DNA of 43,700 nt, taken from positions 1-43,700 of the forward strand of contig JALOQY010000001.1 in assembly GCA_025459285.1 (NCBI GenBank), written 5' to 3'. Both the position numbers and the translations under genes were made by a program. The DNA is from Planctomycetota bacterium. GTDB taxonomy: Bacteria; Planctomycetota; JAJSAM01. Positions 20,006-29,605 of the stretch are shown here, piece by piece. The stretch's first letter is position 1, and every line of letters starts with the position of its first letter. Below the pieces are notes generated by a model, which saw only the letters and a list, made by a program, of their open reading frames with translations, ran no database searches and was not told where the DNA came from.

Positions 20006-22255
20006 TCAGGCCCGCAGGGCCGCCGCTTCCACCACGCCCACCGTGGTCAGGTTCACGACCTGCTCCACCGTCGCTTCGTACTGGAGGACGTGGGCCGGGA
20101 GCGCCGTGCCCATGAGCACCGGGCCGATGGGGATCGCCTCGCCCATGTACTGGAGCGAGTGCATCGTGAGGTTCCCGGACTGGAGGTCGGGGAACACGAG
20201 GACGTTGGCGTCCCGATCGATGTCGGCGAAGGGGAAGCATGTCCGGCGGAGCGCGCCATCGCGTGCCGCGGCGAGCTGCATCTCCCCGTCGATCCGGAGG
20301 TCCGGCGCCATCTCGCGGGCGAGTGCCACGGCGCGGCGGACCTTCCTCGTGTGGGGGTGGTCGACGCTCCCGAAATTCGAGAACGAGAGCATCGCGACGC
20401 GGGGCTCCACGCCCAGGGCGCGGCTCGTGCGGGCCGCCAGCACGGCGATCTCAGCGAGGTCCGTGGCGTCCGGGTCGACCTGCACCGCGCAGTCCGCGAG
20501 GAACACGACGTCCCGCGGCAGCAGTACGAGGTAGTGGCTCGAGACCTTCCGCACGCCGGGCGCCGGACCGATCGCCTGGAGCATCGTGCGCAGCGTCTCC
20601 ACGTAGTGACTCGCATACCCCGCGATCAGCATGTCGGCGTCTCCGCAGCGGACCATCATCGCCGCGAAGATGTCCGGCCTCGTCACGAGCCTGGCGGCGG
20701 CATCGCGCATGACGCCGCGGCGCTTCCGCAGCTCGAAATAGGCCTCCACACAGGCCCCGAACCGGGGGCTGCGCTCCGGCTCCACGATCGGTACCCCCCC
20801 GAGGTCCAGGGAAAGCCGGTCGGCCTTCTCGCGGATCTCGCGCTCCCGGCCGAGCAGCACGGGGCTCGCGATCCCCTCGTCGAGGAGGATGCCGCAGGCG
20901 CGGAGGATCGCTTCGCTCGTCCCCTCGGAGAAGACCACGCGGAGTTTCGCCTGCCGGGCGCGGAGGATCAGCCCCCGCATGGTCTCGCGGCCGGTCCCGA
21001 TCCTCGTCGTGAGGATCTCGTGGTAGGCCGCCGCCTCCAGTGGTCGCCCCGCCACCTCCTCCCGGACGGCCTGCTCGGCCACGGCGGCCGACTCGCGCAC
21101 GAGGATCCGCGGGTCGATGGGCTTCGGCAGGAGGTAGCTCGGGCCAAACGCCATCGTCTCGTCCGCGTAGGCCCGCACGACCTCCTCCGGCACCTCCTCG
21201 CGCGCAAGGTCGGCGAGAGCCCGGGCCGCGGCGAGGAGCATCCCCTCGGTGATGCTGGTGGCCTGCACGTCGAGAGCGCCCCGGAACACATAGGGCACGG
21301 ACAGCAGGTCGAGGATGGCGTTCGGATACTGGCCGAGGCCGGTGGCCACGATCACGTCCTTGCGGCAGGCCCGGGCCACCCCGTAGTCGATCTCCGGCTC
21401 CGGGGTGGCCAGGGCGAAGACGATGGGGAACCGGGCCATGGACCGCACCATCTCCGGGGTGAGGACCCCGGCGGCGGAGGCCCCGACGAAAACGTCCGCG
21501 CCTCGAAGCCCTTCGCCAAGGGACGCCGAAGGGTGCGGGCGGGCGAACTCCCGCTGGTAGGCGTGGAGGTCCGTCCGGTCGGAATGGAGGAGGCCGTCCC
21601 GATCGTAGACGAGCAGGTTCTCCGGCCGGACGCCGAGCTTCACGAACAGACGGGCGCAGCCGGTGCCCACGGTCCCCGCTCCGCAGAGGACGACGCGCGC
21701 GCCGTCGATCCGCTTGTCGGTCAGATCGAGGGCGTTGAGCAGCGCCGCCGCGGCCACCACCGCCGTGCTGTAGAGGTTTTCGTGGAACACGGGGATCCGG
21801 AGGCGCGCGAGCAGGCGCTCGTAGATGATCAATCCCTCGGGCGCCCGGATGTCCTTCAGGTTCACGGCCCCGAATGTCGGCTCGAGCATCGCCACGGTCT
21901 CCACGAACTTCTCCGGATCCGTGGTGTCGATCTCGAGGTCGAAGACGTCGAGGTCCGCGAGCCGCTTGAACAGCACGGCCATGCCCTCCTGCATGGGCTT
22001 CGCGGCGAGCGGACCGACGGCCCCGAGCCCGGGGACGGCGGTACCGTTCGTCACGACCCCCACGAGGTTCCCCCGCGAGGTGAAGCGGAAGGCCGCCGAG
22101 GGATCGGCGGCGATCTCCTCCGCGGGGAACGATGCCCCGGGGAGGTAGGCGAGCCGCATCTCCCGCGGCGTGACGCAGGGCTTCGCCGGTCGGACCTCGA
22201 TCTTCCCGGGCCGGCCCGCGGCGTGATACTCGAGCGAATCGTGTCTCCGGATCAT
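20006..22255 (-). CDS. MaeB-like malic enzyme/PTA fusion with altered catalytic residues
   Basis: 749 residues. The ATG at 22255 overlaps the upstream stop (ATGA) and has GGAGG at 7-base spacing; ATG 22261 is too close to it. Residues ~20-410 align with the malic-enzyme part of MaeB (AYLPGA, SRGNLVGVVTNGTAVPGLG, NAD site VVLCGAGTVGTGCARLF). Residues ~430-749 are the phosphotransacetylase-like part (VVFSEGTSEAILRACGILLD, VFPDLQSGNLTMHSLQYMG). Known residues are changed: the catalytic Lys of the PVMEGKAVLFK motif is Met92 (KPMQEGMAVLFK); the metal-binding Glu-Asp of NLEDI is K134-D135; the HDDQHGTA motif reads H158-E-N-L-Y-S-T. Catalytic Tyr37 remains. It may be inactive in decarboxylation and act in regulation or on another substrate; alignment is from memory. 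Confidence 0.85.
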   Translation of the reverse strand: MIRRHDSLEYHAAGRPGKIEVRPAKPCVTPREMRLAYLPGASFPAEEIAADPSAAFRFTSRGNLVGVVTNGTAVPGLGAVGPLAAKPMQEGMAVLFKRLADLDVFDLEIDTTDPEKFVETVAMLEPTFGAVNLKDIRAPEGLIIYERLLARLRIPVFHENLYSTAVVAAAALLNALDLTDKRIDGARVVLCGAGTVGTGCARLFVKLGVRPENLLVYDRDGLLHSDRTDLHAYQREFARPHPSASLGEGLRGADVFVGASAAGVLTPEMVRSMARFPIVFALATPEPEIDYGVARACRKDVIVATGLGQYPNAILDLLSVPYVFRGALDVQATSITEGMLLAAARALADLAREEVPEEVVRAYADETMAFGPSYLLPKPIDPRILVRESAAVAEQAVREEVAGRPLEAAAYHEILTTRIGTGRETMRGLILRARQAKLRVVFSEGTSEAILRACGILLDEGIASPVLLGREREIREKADRLSLDLGGVPIVEPERSPRFGACVEAYFELRKRRGVMRDAAARLVTRPDIFAAMMVRCGDADMLIAGYASHYVETLRTMLQAIGPAPGVRKVSSHYLVLLPRDVVFLADCAVQVDPDATDLAEIAVLAARTSRALGVEPRVAMLSFSNFGSVDHPHTRKVRRAVALAREMAPDLRIDGEMQLAAARDGALRRTCFPFADIDRDANVLVFPDLQSGNLTMHSLQYMGEAIPIGPVLMGTALPAHVLQYEATVEQVVNLTTVGVVEAAALRA

Positions 22256-25200
22256 GACCATTCCTCCGAACCCGCCGAAAGCGGGAATCTCCCGAGCGTC
22301 GCCTCGAGCGCCGGGAGGAGAACCGGCACGGGGCGCACCTGAAGGATGAAGACACGGCTCCTCTCGATGCCGAACTCCACGTCCACCGGATGGCCGAAGA
22401 CCTCCTCGAGACGGGCGGCAAGGCGGACGAGTTCGGCGAGTTCCACGTACTCGAGCGCCGGCCGCAGGCGCTGGTGATAGAGGCTCTCCGCGCGGATCGT
22501 GCCCCGACCGGCGCGGCGGTCGAAGACGATCCGTTCCCGTTTGTCCGCCACCGCGTAGCTCATCCGGAAGCCGCCCCGCGTCAGGTCTCCCTCCTTCGAG
22601 ACGGTGACGTGGTCCGCGGCGACCGTGCCGGAGACGATGCCCTCTCCGAGCCCGAGTCCGGCATTGATGACCATCTCGCCCTCCTCCCCTCGCGCCACGT
22701 CCACGGTGAGCAGCACTCCGGACACCCGGGAGTCGACCATGCGCTGGACGAGGACTCCGCCGCCCCCGGCGCCGGGGCCGAAGAGAGTCCGGTTGTGGAT
22801 CGCGCGCTCCGTCCAGAGACCGCTCCAGCAGTTCGCGAGCGTTTCGAGCAGGGCCGCCTCGCCCCGGACGAAGAGGAAGGTCTCGAACTCGCCGGCGCGG
22901 GACGCGGCCTCCGCGTCCTCCTCGCGGGAGGAGGAGCGTACGGCCACGAACGTCTCCTCCCCGTCCGGTCCGAGGGCCCGGTAGGCCGAGCCGATCTCCT
23001 CGGCGAGGTCCTTCGGGGGGCGAACCTCGGCGAAGAGCCCGCGGATGAGCGCGGCCTTCTCGGCGGCGGTGGGCCCGTCGCGCGCGAGCACGGTGTCGAT
23101 GGCCGCGCGGAGGCTCCCGGACCGGCTCCGCTCGGCGGCGAGTCGCGGAGCGACCTCCGCCAGCGGACAGTCGAGAACGCGGCGCAGCGCGGCGTCGGTG
23201 ACCGTGAACCAGGGCGGCACGAACTCGGCCCCGAGGATGCGGGCGGTCTCCGCGAGGTTCGCCGCCTTGGCCCCCGCCAGCGGCAGCAGTTCGAACCCGC
23301 CGTCGGCGGCGGTGAGGATGGTCCGGCCGGCAAGGCGCCGCTCGCGCTCCGCGTCCCGGGCCGCAAGGTCTCTCGCCGGTCGCGCGAGGTCCTCGTGCCC
23401 GCCCTCCGGCGTTCCGAGCAGGGCGTCCGCGCGCGCCGCCCGGCGCAGCAGATGGCGGAGGTGGGGGTGCTCCGGTGAGATGGAGATCGCGGCGGCGTCG
23501 CGCAGTTCGTGGAGCCTCCGGCGGGCAAGTACATCCAGCGGGGCGGTGGAAGGCGCCCCTCCCGCGGGACCGGCGAGGGCCCTCGTGGCCCGTAGGGCTT
23601 CGAGGCGGGGGGCCAGCACCTCGAAGAGGCCGATGGCGCGCGGAATGCGGTCCTCGGCCCTCCGGAAGGCCCTCCGGCGGCGTGCCTCGAGTTCGCGGGC
23701 GGTCTGCGCGACGAAGGTCGGGACCACCGCCGTGACGGCGGGGTTCTGTCCGAGGGTCGCGAGGAGTTCCTCGCGATCCGTGACGGTCTCCCCGAGCAGG
23801 AGCTCCCGGACCGCGAACCGCGCGAGCACGGGATCGACGAGGCGCCCGAGCACTTTCGCCACCTGATGTCGGGCGCGCAATCGCCGGCCGCGGAGCACGA
23901 GCGCGTCGGCATCCGACGGGGCGGCGCCGAGGCACTGCTCGGCCTTCGCGAGGTGGCGCAACCCCTCGGCGAGGGCGAGGGTGTCACGGTCCTGGCCCAG
24001 GACTCGCAGGGTTCCGGCGGTGGCGTTGAGGACGAGGAGGTCCCCTTCGACGAGTCGGTGTTCGCGTTCCCGGAGGTTCCGGCGTTCGCCGATCCGGAAG
24101 CCGCGGACCTCGTATTCCTCCTCCCGATACTCGGGAACGGTGAAGAGGAGGATCGGAGCTCCGGAGGCATCCGCCGTCCAGCGTCCGGGGATCACCAGCG
24201 CGGGTTTGCGGAACTGGAGCGCGATGAGCCCGGCGTGGGAGAGGGCGCCCCCTCCGGTGGAGACGACGCCCGCCGCGCGGTAGAGGCCCGGGGTATCCTC
24301 CGGCCGGACCGCGGCCTTCACGAGGATGGCGCCCTCGAGGGCTTCCGCCGGGGTATCGCCGTTCCCGAAGACGGCGTGGCCGGAGGTCCGCCCGGGAGCC
24401 GCCGGCAGTCCGGTGATCACCCTCTCCCCGGGAAGTGGCCCCGGCTCCCGGACCAGATCCCCGGCGGCGATTTCGCGGAGCAGCCGCCGGGCCTCCTCGC
24501 GGGCCTCGGACGAGGACGGCTCGACCTCCACCAGGGGGAAGTTGGCCCGGCGGAGCTTCCCGGCGAGAGCCGGCAGCGGCACGCCGGGGCACCGGGCGAG
24601 TCGGATGATCCCCGCCTCGTCGCGCAGCACCGACAAGGCCAGTCCTTCCCCGGGCAGACCCAGCCGCGCGCTGAGGACGTCACGGCCCGCGACGTGGCCA
24701 ATGGTCCGGAACGACAGCGTCCGCGCCACGGGTCCCGTGAGGCGGGCGCAGGCCACCGCCTCGGCCACCGCGGCCTCGCCCTCCGCGAGGAGCTCCGCGA
24801 ACCGCACCGCCTCGTGCCGTCGGCCGGAGGCGGGCCGCGGGCCCTCCGGCCCCGGGATGATCTCGCCGCGGGCCAGGGCTTCCGCGAGTGGGGTGAGGAC
24901 CGTCTCTTCGAGCCGGATCTGCCCGAGGGCCCGCCTCCGGTCTTCCCCCCCGAACGATGGCTCGGGCAGGCGAAGGGCGGCGAGTCCGGCCGCGAGACGG
25001 TCGAGGAGCCCCGGGAGGGGCGGGCCGCCGAAGCGGTCCCCCGGGGGGCCCTCGCCGGTCCACGGGATCTCCTTCTCGCCGAGGGGACCCCGCTCGATCG
25101 CGGCGAGGACGCCCCGGCGGTCCTTCGTGAGGAGCGCGCGCAGGGGAAGCGCGCCGTGGCGCGCGAAGGACGCCGCCCACTCCTCCGCCAGCGTCTCCCG

Positions 25201-27030
25201 GGCCCCGGGCGGGAGATCCAGGGAGCCGAGGACCCAGTCGAGATCCATGAGATACGGCGCGAGGCGCAGCATCGCCGCGGCCCGGTCGCAGAGCGTCCCG
25301 AGGTCCACGACCGACTCCTTGTCCGCCCGCGCGTGGACCCGCGTGCCGCGGACTTCCACGTCGAAGCCGAGCGCGGCGAGGAAGGCGCGAAGAGACTCGA
25401 GGCCCGGTGCCGGGTGGGCGTCCAGCTCGTAGTTGCTGACCCCGAAGAACTCGAGGTCCACCATCCCGCCCCGCAGTGGGGGCGAGAGGTCGAGGCGCAG
25501 GAACGCCGGGTGGTTGCGGAACGAGAGATAGACGTGGACCTCGTTGCCGTAGGAGTGGACCTCCACCCAGGGGAACTTCTCCTGTCCGGCGAGGAGTTGT
25601 CGCGCGATGCCGTCGAGGGCGGCGCGCACGGGCCAGGGGAGGCCCGCGTCGCCGGAGAAGTCGGCGTACTTCACCACCTTCGCGCTGGCGAGGCGCCCCT
25701 TCGTCGCCACGACGACGTCGGCGGTGCGGCGCGGCGCCCGCCCGGCGCCGACGAACGAGAAGCCGAGGCGCAGACCGCGCTGGTGGAGATAGCGCTTCAG
25801 GCCGTGCAGCGTGCGGACCTCCCCCAGGTTCCGAGGGTCCTCGAACGCGTTCACGAGCCGGGTCAGCTCCGGGGACAGATGCTCCCGGCCGGCCTCGCGC
25901 CCGAGTTCCCGCGCGATGGCGTCGCGGAGATCCCGCCACGCCCCGGGGAGGAGCGCGCACTCTTCCGAGAGGTTCGCGAACAGCGCGATGAAATCTTCAA
26001 CGACCGCGCCCATGTCGGCGACGAGCGACTGTACGCGTTCCTTCGTCAGGGGCGCGAGATCGAGGATCCGCTCGAGAAGGGCGGCGTGACGGAGGTTGAG
26101 CGTGCGGAAGCGGTCCACGGGGGCGCCGGTTTCGCGCGCGTTGTCCGGACTGCCGGCCTCCCCGCCGTGGGCGAAGAAGATGACCGATTCGCCGGCGCGG
26201 CGGAGCCCGTCCGCGCCATCGAGGAGGGAGGCGGCGTAGGGGGGAACGAACAGCGGCAGGGCGCCGCCGGTGACGAAGCCCGCGAGGCGCTTCGCCTCGA
26301 TGCCGTGGTTCACCCTGGCCCAGCCGAGAGAGGCGACGACCTCGCGGAGGAGCTCGAAGCCGGCGACTTCCTCCGCCCGGCGCATGGCCGCGACGGTGCC
26401 GGCCGTCAGGTGCGAAAGATCGAGGTGCGACGCCCGCGTGTAGTCGAGATACCCGGCCAGGAAGTCGTGATCCGCGGGGGCGAGAAGCTGCCGGGCGGTC
26501 TCTGGTGGGGCGGGTTCGCCGGAAAGATCGAGGATGCGGGCGGCCAGCCTCCGGACGCTCTCGTCGCGGGCGTCGAGGAAGTGGCCGGTCAGCGGCCCCG
26601 CGCGGGCGAGGATGCGCCCGGCGTCGGCGATGGCGTCCGGTCCGGCGAAGGGCGAGTCATCGATCTCGACGCGCTCCGCGATCGCGGCGAGGATCGCCCC
26701 GCCGGGGAGTGCGTCCCGCTCCGCGGCGAGACGCAGCGCGCGGCGGGCGAGTGAGGGGTCGCGCGCGCCAAGGAGCGATCTGAAGAGGGGCCAGGGATCC
26801 GCGAGACCGGCGGCGGCCTCGGCGAGGAGGTCGAAGACCGGCACCAGGACCGCGCCCGCCCGCTCGCCGAGGAGGTCGCCGAGAGGGTGGAGCGGGGCCG
26901 GGTCCGGAAGCGGGAAGTACCGGCGGAGTCGATCGCAGTGGCCGGCGACATCCACGGGATCGGCCGTCGCGAGCCGCGCTGCGGCGGCCACGCGCCCGAC
27001 AAGGTCGGCGATCTCGTCCCGCGAGGACAT
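22252..27030 (-). CDS. Large phosphohistidine/ATP-grasp dikinase with GWD-like domain order
   Basis: 1592 residues. Residues ~1-850: large region of unknown fold, with a segment WVEVHSYGNEVHVYLSFRNH at about 490. Residues ~860-960: PEP-utiliser swivel domain with phospho-accepting His932 in GGGALSHAGLIALQFRKPAL. Residues ~1240-1585: nucleotide-binding ATP-grasp domain of the PpsA/PPDK type (AGAKAANLAETARILG, VAVRSSSREEDAE with Arg1365, GLGLGEGIVSG, ending VFILQVRPVPVL). The TIM-barrel PEP/pyruvate domain is absent. In PEP synthase the ATP-grasp part comes first; here it is last, the order known from glucan and phosphoglucan water dikinases. Likely reaction: ATP-driven transfer of phosphate through His932 to a substrate bound by the N-terminal region. 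Forms an operon with the MaeB-like gene. Confidence 0.8.
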   Translation of the reverse strand: MSSRDEIADLVGRVAAAARLATADPVDVAGHCDRLRRYFPLPDPAPLHPLGDLLGERAGAVLVPVFDLLAEAAAGLADPWPLFRSLLGARDPSLARRALRLAAERDALPGGAILAAIAERVEIDDSPFAGPDAIADAGRILARAGPLTGHFLDARDESVRRLAARILDLSGEPAPPETARQLLAPADHDFLAGYLDYTRASHLDLSHLTAGTVAAMRRAEEVAGFELLREVVASLGWARVNHGIEAKRLAGFVTGGALPLFVPPYAASLLDGADGLRRAGESVIFFAHGGEAGSPDNARETGAPVDRFRTLNLRHAALLERILDLAPLTKERVQSLVADMGAVVEDFIALFANLSEECALLPGAWRDLRDAIARELGREAGREHLSPELTRLVNAFEDPRNLGEVRTLHGLKRYLHQRGLRLGFSFVGAGRAPRRTADVVVATKGRLASAKVVKYADFSGDAGLPWPVRAALDGIARQLLAGQEKFPWVEVHSYGNEVHVYLSFRNHPAFLRLDLSPPLRGGMVDLEFFGVSNYELDAHPAPGLESLRAFLAALGFDVEVRGTRVHARADKESVVDLGTLCDRAAAMLRLAPYLMDLDWVLGSLDLPPGARETLAEEWAASFARHGALPLRALLTKDRRGVLAAIERGPLGEKEIPWTGEGPPGDRFGGPPLPGLLDRLAAGLAALRLPEPSFGGEDRRRALGQIRLEETVLTPLAEALARGEIIPGPEGPRPASGRRHEAVRFAELLAEGEAAVAEAVACARLTGPVARTLSFRTIGHVAGRDVLSARLGLPGEGLALSVLRDEAGIIRLARCPGVPLPALAGKLRRANFPLVEVEPSSSEAREEARRLLREIAAGDLVREPGPLPGERVITGLPAAPGRTSGHAVFGNGDTPAEALEGAILVKAAVRPEDTPGLYRAAGVVSTGGGALSHAGLIALQFRKPALVIPGRWTADASGAPILLFTVPEYREEEYEVRGFRIGERRNLREREHRLVEGDLLVLNATAGTLRVLGQDRDTLALAEGLRHLAKAEQCLGAAPSDADALVLRGRRLRARHQVAKVLGRLVDPVLARFAVRELLLGETVTDREELLATLGQNPAVTAVVPTFVAQTARELEARRRRAFRRAEDRIPRAIGLFEVLAPRLEALRATRALAGPAGGAPSTAPLDVLARRRLHELRDAAAISISPEHPHLRHLLRRAARADALLGTPEGGHEDLARPARDLAARDAERERRLAGRTILTAADGGFELLPLAGAKAANLAETARILGAEFVPPWFTVTDAALRRVLDCPLAEVAPRLAAERSRSGSLRAAIDTVLARDGPTAAEKAALIRGLFAEVRPPKDLAEEIGSAYRALGPDGEETFVAVRSSSREEDAEAASRAGEFETFLFVRGEAALLETLANCWSGLWTERAIHNRTLFGPGAGGGGVLVQRMVDSRVSGVLLTVDVARGEEGEMVINAGLGLGEGIVSGTVAADHVTVSKEGDLTRGGFRMSYAVADKRERIVFDRRAGRGTIRAESLYHQRLRPALEYVELAELVRLAARLEEVFGHPVDVEFGIERSRVFILQVRPVPVLLPALEATLGRFPLSAGSEEWS

Positions 27031-27110: not shown

Positions 27111-27137
27111 CGCCCGTCGCCGAGAGGCTGCTAGCGG
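27111..27137. repeat. Stop-codon palindrome, partial copy D
   Basis: Reads GCCCGTCGCCGAGAGG joined directly to CTGCTAGCGG: the left arm of copy B fused to the outer end of the right arm, as after loss of the centre. The minus-strand TAG (27133-27131) is the stop of the membrane-protein gene. Confidence 0.6.
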
Positions 27138-27646
27138 CGTGAAGCGAGGCGGACGATTCCGGAGCCGAGGAGGCCGAGGAGGGCCACCGCGGTCCCGGTG
27201 AGGAGCAGGGCAGCCGTGCTGCTGACCCCGTTCGCGATGTCTGCCGGGGTCACTTGTGCGCTGAGCCGGCCGATCGTGTCCATGGCGCCCCGCAGGCCAG
27301 TCAGGGCGCCGAGCAGCGCGAAGAGGAACGCCGCTTCGCCGAGGCCCCGGACGAGCGCACCCCAGCAGGGCCACGCCCCTTCCCGGCGCACCGCGCAGGC
27401 CCCGAGCAGTGTGGCGGCGAGCACGGCGACCCCGAGCGCGAGGAGGGTCCACTGTCCCCACCCGCGCGCGGTGCCCACCCCCGGAAAGCCGGTCCCGGGC
27501 CTTCCCGTGTCCGGCCCGGCCGCCTCGGCCGCTTCGACCGTCCAGTCCGTGATTCGCACGGCGGGGATCTGCACGAAGGTGAAGGGCAGCGTGAGGAGCA
27601 GGAGTACCACCGCACCCCGCGCCGCGACGAAAGCCGCTCGTCCCAT
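27131..27646 (-). CDS. Small membrane protein, possibly MotA/TolQ/ExbB-like
   Basis: 171 residues. GGGAGG precedes the ATG at 27646, preferred to the upstream frame start at 27679. Four membrane helices: AFVAARGAVVLLLLTLPFTF, WTLLALGVAVLAATLLGACA, then a long one around FLFALLGALTGLRGAMDTIG, and the last, STAALLLTGTAVALLGLLGS. The pattern LTGLRGAMDTIGRLSAQVTP followed by DIANGVSSTAALLLTG recalls the C-terminal half of MotA/TolQ/ExbB proton channels, but the protein is short and no ExbD/TolR partner is adjacent. A TAGAGT box ~35 bases upstream could be its -10. Confidence 0.5.
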   Translation of the reverse strand: MGRAAFVAARGAVVLLLLTLPFTFVQIPAVRITDWTVEAAEAAGPDTGRPGTGFPGVGTARGWGQWTLLALGVAVLAATLLGACAVRREGAWPCWGALVRGLGEAAFLFALLGALTGLRGAMDTIGRLSAQVTPADIANGVSSTAALLLTGTAVALLGLLGSGIVRLASRR

Positions 27647-27727
27647 GGTCCGCCTCCCGGCTGTTCGATCCGGGGTCACTCTACCGGATGCGGCAGTCGC
27701 GGCGCAAGCAGGCGAAACGACTCCGAG

Positions 27728-28646: not shown

Positions 28647-28943
28647 ATGTCGCCTCTCTGTCCGACTCGCGAAGAACTCCTCGTGGATTGCCGGGGTCGT
28701 CCCTATTTCCTCTGGGACTGCGAGCTGACGCTGGACGAATTCCGCGCGAAACTCCGGACGGGAGACCGTGCGCAGCGGGCCTACCTCGCCGGGAAGCTCA
28801 TGCGCCAGGCGAAGCCCGACGACGTCTTCTCCTTCGTGAGTCTCTCTGAGATCCGGGACCTCTGGCCCGACCTGGCGGGCACCCTCGGCCGCACGCGCGA
28901 CTTCTGGGAGTGGATTCTCGGCGAGTGGGGGGTGGTGTCATGA
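28647..28943 (+). CDS. Small partner of the AbiEii-like nucleotidyltransferase (putative antitoxin)
   Basis: 98 residues. Acidic and helix-rich, with several Trp (FLWDCELTLDEFRAKLR, IRDLWPDLAGTL, DFWEWILGEWG). I do not recognise a named domain. The stop overlaps the start of the nucleotidyltransferase (ATGA), a coupling typical of toxin-antitoxin pairs, with the small gene first. Calling it an antitoxin is inference from order, size and overlap. Confidence 0.55.
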   Translation: MSPLCPTREELLVDCRGRPYFLWDCELTLDEFRAKLRTGDRAQRAYLAGKLMRQAKPDDVFSFVSLSEIRDLWPDLAGTLGRTRDFWEWILGEWGVVS

Positions 28944-29605
28944 CCGACTCGCGACTGACTCCCCTCCAGCAGAATGTCCTCGGGACCCTGGCCGGCATCG
29001 AACCGCCCTGGACCCTGACGGGGGGAGGCGCCCTGGCCGGCTTCCACCTGTGTCACCGCGCAACGCGGGATCTCGATCTGTTCTGGCACGCTCAGGTGAA
29101 GCTCGGTCCGTGGAGGGAGGAGTGCGCGCATCGCCTGCGCGACGCCGGATTCGAGGTCGCGATCCTGCAGAGGTTCGACACCTTCGAGAGGCTCCTCGTG
29201 TCGGACGGTGCCGATCGAGTGGTCCTGGACCTGGTCGCGGAGCCGGTGCCGGCGATCGAGCCGCCGCAGCAGGTCCCTCTCGGTGCCACCCGGATCCTGG
29301 TGGACACGCCGCACGAGATCCTCGTGAACAAGCTGTGTGCGCTTCTCGGCCGGGCCGAGCTCAGGGACCTCCACGAGCTGAGGGAACTGCTGGCCGTCGG
29401 AGGCGATCTCCCGCGGGCACTCCGCGACGCGCCACGGAAGGACGGCGGGTTCTCCCCGCTCATGCTGGCCTTCCTGCTCCGCGACATGCCCGTGGAGATG
29501 ATGGCCGCGGCGAGTGGACTCGGCGAACCGCTGGCCGGGGAACTCCTCCGCTTCCGCGACGAACTCGCGCCGCGCCTGCTCGCCGCGGCACGGCCCGGGC
29601 ACTAG
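28940..29605 (+). CDS. Nucleotidyltransferase, AbiEii/AbiGii toxin family
   Basis: 221 residues from the ATG in the ATGA overlap. The DNA-polymerase-beta-like signature is present: GGGALAGFHLCHRATRDLDL (GG ... D-L-D), third acidic residue in VVLDLV, and the AbiEii-type motif EILVNKLCALLGRAELRDLH. AbiEii-type toxins (type IV TA, including MenT relatives) transfer nucleotides to RNA or protein and arrest growth or block phage. The family also has members without shown toxicity. Codon use is like its neighbours. The stop TAG lies in palindrome copy B. Confidence 0.85.
   Translation: MTDSRLTPLQQNVLGTLAGIEPPWTLTGGGALAGFHLCHRATRDLDLFWHAQVKLGPWREECAHRLRDAGFEVAILQRFDTFERLLVSDGADRVVLDLVAEPVPAIEPPQQVPLGATRILVDTPHEILVNKLCALLGRAELRDLHELRELLAVGGDLPRALRDAPRKDGGFSPLMLAFLLRDMPVEMMAAASGLGEPLAGELLRFRDELAPRLLAAARPGH

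Follow-up and report, generated by a model that had tools for sequence, protein, structure and literature searches.

A bacterial dikinase with a C-terminal ATP-grasp domain and its malic-enzyme-like partner gene: a candidate two-protein system near central carbon metabolism

A 43,700-nucleotide stretch of a Planctomycetota bacterium contig (JALOQY010000001.1; hereafter the window) encodes a protein of dikinase type, in which the swivel phosphohistidine domain is preceded by a large N-terminal region (residues 1–860) and followed by a C-terminal ATP-grasp domain; the locus raises the question of which acceptor such an enzyme would phosphorylate. Dikinases form a small enzyme class, in which every new acceptor domain has so far brought a new substrate with it (pyruvate, starch, rifampin, phenols). 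In the present case the putative acceptor region is accompanied by a strict genomic clue, a neighbouring malic enzyme relative with a systematically changed active site, and the pair constitutes two proteins and one pathway node that are testable together. A search of open PMC papers returned nothing on a pairing of a dikinase with a MaeB-like protein, or on bacterial dikinases with the domain order of plant glucan water dikinases (GWD).

Domain order and conservation of the dikinase

The reading frame was confirmed at exactly the limits given in Table 1, and Pfam matches place the His932 swivel domain ahead of the ATP-grasp domain, as the initial annotation had proposed. His932 lies within the motif TGGGALSHAGL (codon 24235–24237); catalytic roles for this histidine and for the ATP-grasp residues are assigned by reference to PEP synthase and rifampin phosphotransferase (RPH), and are presumed to hold here. 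The absence of a PEP/pyruvate TIM barrel was likewise borne out: Pfam finds no PEP-utilizers_C barrel in the dikinase at E ≤ 1, the secondary structure of a model of residues 1–862 lacks an eightfold β-α barrel pattern, and a barrel was looked for specifically in the N-terminal region, where none was found. In the PDB, the ATP-grasp domain is closest to PEP synthase and RPH entries; the 5hv/5fb entries labelled 'Phosphoenolpyruvate synthase' are RPH according to excerpts of PMC12167813. The protein falls below the NCBIfam equivalog cut-offs for both families (PEP_synth, 192.4 versus 739.75 bits; RPH, 170.6 versus 999 bits).

Table 1. Features of the dikinase–partner locus (positions in the window)
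Feature	Position	Strand	Description
Dikinase gene P0001	22252..27030	minus	1592 aa; ORF and translation; family of 20 loci
HEAT-like helical repeats	26518..27030	minus	residues 1–171; low conservation; shorter in L030 and L031; model and alignment
Conserved N-terminal core	25051..25905	minus	residues 376–660; proposed acceptor-binding/catalytic region; conservation and model
Swivel phosphohistidine domain	24175..24336	minus	residues 899–952; PF00391 (PEP-utilizers) match, E 1.2e-9
Linker between His and ATP-grasp domains	23296..24030	minus	residues 1001–1245; no Pfam match; conserved among members
ATP-grasp domain	22324..23283	minus	residues 1250–1569; PF01326 (PPDK_N), E 1.8e-54; K1255, R1365, E1552, Q1564 and R1566 kept
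ATGA overlap	22252..22255	minus	dikinase stop TGA (22254–22252) and partner ATG (22255–22253); GGAGGA just upstream of the partner start
Partner gene, MaeB-like malic enzyme–PTA hybrid	20006..22255	minus	749 aa; altered active site; Pfam malic, Malic_M, PTA_PTB

Genome searches added 19 further members, from Thermoanaerobaculia and their phylum, from Ignavibacteria and from one Bacteroidota metagenome-assembled genome (MAG), which brings the family to 20 loci, one per genome; 16 of them are full-length, one (L032) has no start, and three (L031, L051, L052) are cut at the 3′ end by contig ends. A scan of 84,980 species genomes contributed eight relatives, all titled MAGs (Thermoanaerobaculales/Thermoanaerobaculia, Ignavibacteriales/Ignavibacteriaceae, and the Bacteroidota member). 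In profile searches, with query genomes counted, members were found in 9 of 148 genomes in the class of L027 and 6 of 396 in its phylum; for the classes of L029 and L028 the counts were 2 of 245 and 1 of 295. Every named member is a MAG, and the others are draft genomes. Among 392 genomes of the window's own phylum, the N-terminal 861 residues match the window itself and give one weak local match (G329, E 3e-4); the latter, L026 (G329:C154), is a 364-aa ORF matching the N-terminal repeat region only, and may be a chance repeat match. A plasmid search with the same 861 residues gave no match. The GC content of the window is 0.718, compared with 0.666–0.702 in six other loci of the same genome, and its contig could be mis-binned; the family does not hinge on the window.

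The three-part order is common to all 17 loci that reach the ATP-grasp core, window included, and since relatives of 36–52% identity keep the whole of it, the dikinase ORF did not arise by chance. Of the covering rows, 18/18 retain His932 and K1255, and 17/17 retain R1365, E1552, Q1564 and R1566. In an ATP-grasp tree computed without GWD sequences, the 17 family rows form one group (support 100/100) on a long stem, placed beside L006, L007, L008 and L011 with moderate support only. These four (from G051, G044, G031 and G026) are long proteins, 1066–1256 aa in the stretch taken, with the ATP-grasp domain mid-protein, 340–450 unannotated residues ahead of it, and a swivel match further downstream.

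The initial annotation had described the N-terminal region as unrecognised and as the probable substrate-binding part. It matches neither a Pfam family nor a solved sequence, no fold match reaches significance, and it is conserved in the manner of a substrate site. Residues 1–860 match zero Pfam families, carbohydrate-binding ones included, at E ≤ 1, and nine aligned family members likewise gave nothing convincing. A model of residues 1–862 built from nine sequences (m520a33cc130e; pLDDT 81.8, pTM 0.71) opens with HEAT-like helical repeats, and a model of residues 298–640 built from 18 sequences reached pLDDT 86.9 and pTM 0.77. Foldseek returned no match at E ≤ 0.001 for the first, nor for the second in PDB or viral models. 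In VIA-align, most rows for the first model span only residues 1–171 and are HEAT/armadillo-type or designed helical repeats, and rows for the second (best Z 10.9) span mainly its four-helix part, the α/β part being at about 430–575; weak rows in these N-terminal fold searches include 2plg, RecJ and arginine kinase. The sole PDB sequence match of the N-terminal profile (E 0.087, an unrelated 122-aa chain) was set aside. Kinship with the acceptor domains of RPH and HpeH was considered and found no support by profile: hhalign against ten RPH-like proteins (ten of twenty loci, those with a usable frame and motif) gave the N-terminal region a probability of 0.2% to their acceptor domains and the His domain 97.9%. 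RPH is absent from the 50 fold-search matches listed for the N-terminal models.

Conservation within this region is concentrated in its core. Invariant positions number 148 across the 16 full-length rows; of these, 38 lie within the 200 residues at 401–600, versus four at 1–200, making 401–600 the densest stretch of invariants outside the ATP-grasp domain. H409, K412, R413, H416, N496, E497, H507, R512, D525, R568, D570, K571, D596 and D598 are present in 18/18 covering rows, a sequence pattern of the kind seen in binding or catalytic sites. From this conservation, and by analogy with RPH and HpeH, residues ~400–600 are likely the putative phospho-acceptor site.

Pairing with a malic-enzyme-like gene

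Missed in the initial annotation was the gene that overlaps the dikinase stop codon (Table 1). A MaeB-like gene lies directly downstream on the same strand in all 17 loci with an uncut dikinase 3′ end, its start within about 25 bases of the dikinase stop or overlapping it. In a comparison of the window with 15 other loci, no other neighbour family is common to three or more. One neighbour family is common to two loci of different groups (L028, 13434–14228; L029, 9009–9779). On the upstream side, the window holds at 27131–27679 (minus strand) a 182-aa hydrophobic-looking protein with no Pfam match, directly upstream of the dikinase, and at 28910–29605 (plus strand) an AbiEii-like nucleotidyl transferase (PF08843, E 5.2e-13).

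Among the 148 genomes in the class of L027, a full-length partner (57–75% identity) occurs in exactly the seven with an uncut dikinase (G392, G397, G398, G656, G745, G776 and G782); in two more (G777, G788) the dikinase gene is truncated by the end of its contig. G737, which gave no dikinase match, carries a partner fragment of 72% identity at the edge of contig C25. The partner in the genome of L031 (L060) is on another contig. Mean identity between members is 63% for the partner and 41% for the dikinase, and their distance matrices are correlated (r 0.87; 0/2000 permutations as high), as is expected if the pair travels together. Pairing of the genes is not proof that their products interact.

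Altered malic site and acetyl-CoA-linked residues of the partner

The malic, Malic_M and PTA_PTB domains extend over the full length of 7/7 partner proteins scanned with Pfam. The partners are nevertheless distinct from canonical MaeB: they are 39–51% identical to canonical MaeB paralogues, separate from those of the same genomes in a tree (100/100), and score 692.8 bits against the NCBIfam MaeB cut-off of 1178. Residue numbers below refer to a 764-residue translation starting at 22300 (subtract 15 for the 749-aa protein), nearly those of Bdellovibrio MaeB, and counts to 18 partner rows; the pattern was first seen in 14 rows.

Position 107, a lysine in every covered canonical row, is M/I/L/V/A in 18/18 partners; canonical E149 is replaced by K/R/L and canonical N299 by T/F/A, each in 18/18. 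At position 174 (canonical D) there is E in 16 and D in two, and at 175 N in 15, G in two and D in one, such that this aspartate is lost in 17/18; the exception, the partner of L033, retains the HDD motif. We take K107 to be the equivalent of the catalytic Lys183 of human ME2, and E149, D150 and D175 that of its metal ligands. D150 is kept in 18/18 partners and Y52 in 17/18, the outlier being L060, which has Ala at this position in the 18-row alignment (where there is a small duplication) and Tyr in the 14-row alignment. The pocket also has fixed residues of its own, with K101, D150, L176, N327 and R340 present in 18/18. Same-genome MaeB paralogues are intact at positions 107, 149, 175 and 299 wherever covered, and in the class of L027 the next-best MaeBs (≤51% identity) are canonical in 23/23 examined. 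Excerpts of the work on Bdellovibrio MaeB (PMC7902834) name Y52, D150 and N300 as active-site or cofactor residues, giving the equivalences D150–D256 and N300–N421.

At the putative acetyl-CoA site, R535 is kept in 18/18 partners and N718 in 17/18, both having been mutated in the acetyl-CoA work on the Bdellovibrio enzyme in the same excerpts; the position of Bdellovibrio E544 is Ala in the window. With its malate metal and catalytic site rewired, the partner has probably ceased to work as an ordinary malic enzyme, as judged from its sequence, although the retention of D150 and Y52, and of HDD in the partner of L033, makes residual or new chemistry possible. Automatic annotation would name it a malic enzyme despite the lost catalytic residues.

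Possible roles and comparison with known systems

These observations suggest a two-protein system close to central carbon metabolism that has not been described before, and not a starch kinase. We consider it somewhat more likely than not that the protein is a dikinase for a new acceptor and that it operates alongside a malic-enzyme-like protein with a rewired site. In the mechanism proposed, the C-terminal ATP-grasp domain would bind ATP and phosphorylate His932; the swivel domain would then deliver this phosphoryl group to an acceptor bound in the N-terminal region, most likely at the invariant core. The translationally coupled MaeB-like protein, which keeps the malic enzyme and PTA folds, would share one process with the dikinase. 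Since the partner gene is strict, it points to the malate/pyruvate/acetyl-CoA node, and a small organic acid of this node that the partner makes, uses or senses seems to us a more likely acceptor than a glucan. We are evenly divided on the broader formulation, in which the substrate of the dikinase, whether metabolite or protein, is one that a neofunctionalised malic enzyme makes, uses or senses. If true, this would amount to a new chemistry of phosphorylated C3/C4 acids, or to a phosphohistidine switch that responds to acetyl-CoA and the redox state.

A rival reading casts the MaeB-like protein as a pseudoenzyme that would sense acetyl-CoA, perhaps with NAD(P), and switch the dikinase on or off; the target of the dikinase, a protein or metabolite, would lie elsewhere. 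We regard this as possible but rather doubtful. The loss of malic-site residues with retention of the PTA sensor residues fits such a role, as do the PTA ring of genuine MaeB, which turns the ME domains in response to acetyl-CoA (PMC7902834, excerpts), and VadK of M. tuberculosis, a regulatory kinase derived from PPDK that autophosphorylates and has enzymes of the methylcitrate cycle as interaction partners (PMC13400623, excerpts). However, conservation is higher in the partner than in the dikinase, and a pocket with its own invariant residues looks like kept chemistry, not a decayed site; coupled small-molecule chemistry is slightly preferred to a pure sensor because of these fixed residues. 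That the MaeB-like neighbour is itself the phospho-acceptor, with the dikinase acting as a protein kinase, is unlikely: strict pairing and translational coupling would suit it, and the N-terminal helical repeats could bind a protein, but the compact invariant core appears more like a small-molecule site.

Conversion of pyruvate from a neighbouring malic enzyme to PEP, by a permuted PEP synthase, would account for both the PEP-synthase-like ATP-grasp domain and the adjoining malic enzyme relative; we rejected this very improbable reading on the absence of the barrel, and the neighbour moreover lacks malate-site residues, with the genome having other PEP-utiliser/ATP-grasp loci and a canonical MaeB. 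Least credible to us is a bacterial glucan water dikinase acting on glycogen or another glucan, to which only the order of substrate region, His domain and ATP-grasp domain would lead; its ATP-grasp domain is of PEP synthase/RPH type, Pfam detects no carbohydrate-binding domain (E ≤ 1), and the conserved neighbour is malic-enzyme-like and not of glycogen metabolism. With no supporting context from Pfam or from the neighbours, a glucan kinase was dropped as the lead reading. The initial annotation stands for the dikinase and its N-terminal region; glucan-dikinase kinship finds no support.

The plant enzymes GWD and PWD have the order substrate region, His domain, ATP-grasp, which the dikinase shares; it differs from them in the lack of a carbohydrate-binding match, in its ATP-grasp type and in having a partner gene. 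The likeness in order is supported by Pfam, with GWD represented by its generally known order; shared function or kinship is not supported, given the ATP-grasp type and the neighbour. According to a 2026 review (PMC12892837, excerpts), neither GWD nor PWD had a solved structure. With PEP synthase and PPDK, the dikinase shares the chemistry residues of the ATP-grasp and swivel His domains, but its order is reversed and the PEP/pyruvate barrel is absent. RPH, in which the ATP-grasp domain comes first, HpeHI and the phenylphosphate-synthase-type kinases likewise combine ATP-grasp and swivel His domains with an acceptor domain of their own instead of the PEP barrel, although the N-terminal region described here shows no profile similarity to the acceptor domains of the ten RPH-like proteins compared. 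In HpeH, as described in excerpts of PMC12167813, the acceptor region lies ahead of the His domain, with the ATP-grasp domain on a separate protein (HpeI); a fusion of HpeH with HpeI would give the order seen in the window. The partner, for its part, shares with MaeB the full-length ME and PTA architecture, R535 and N718, but forms a separate clade with changes at K107, E149, D175 and N299. Likened by its description in excerpts of PMC13400623, VadK (Rv1127c) is likewise a PPDK-derived autophosphorylating kinase near central carbon metabolism.
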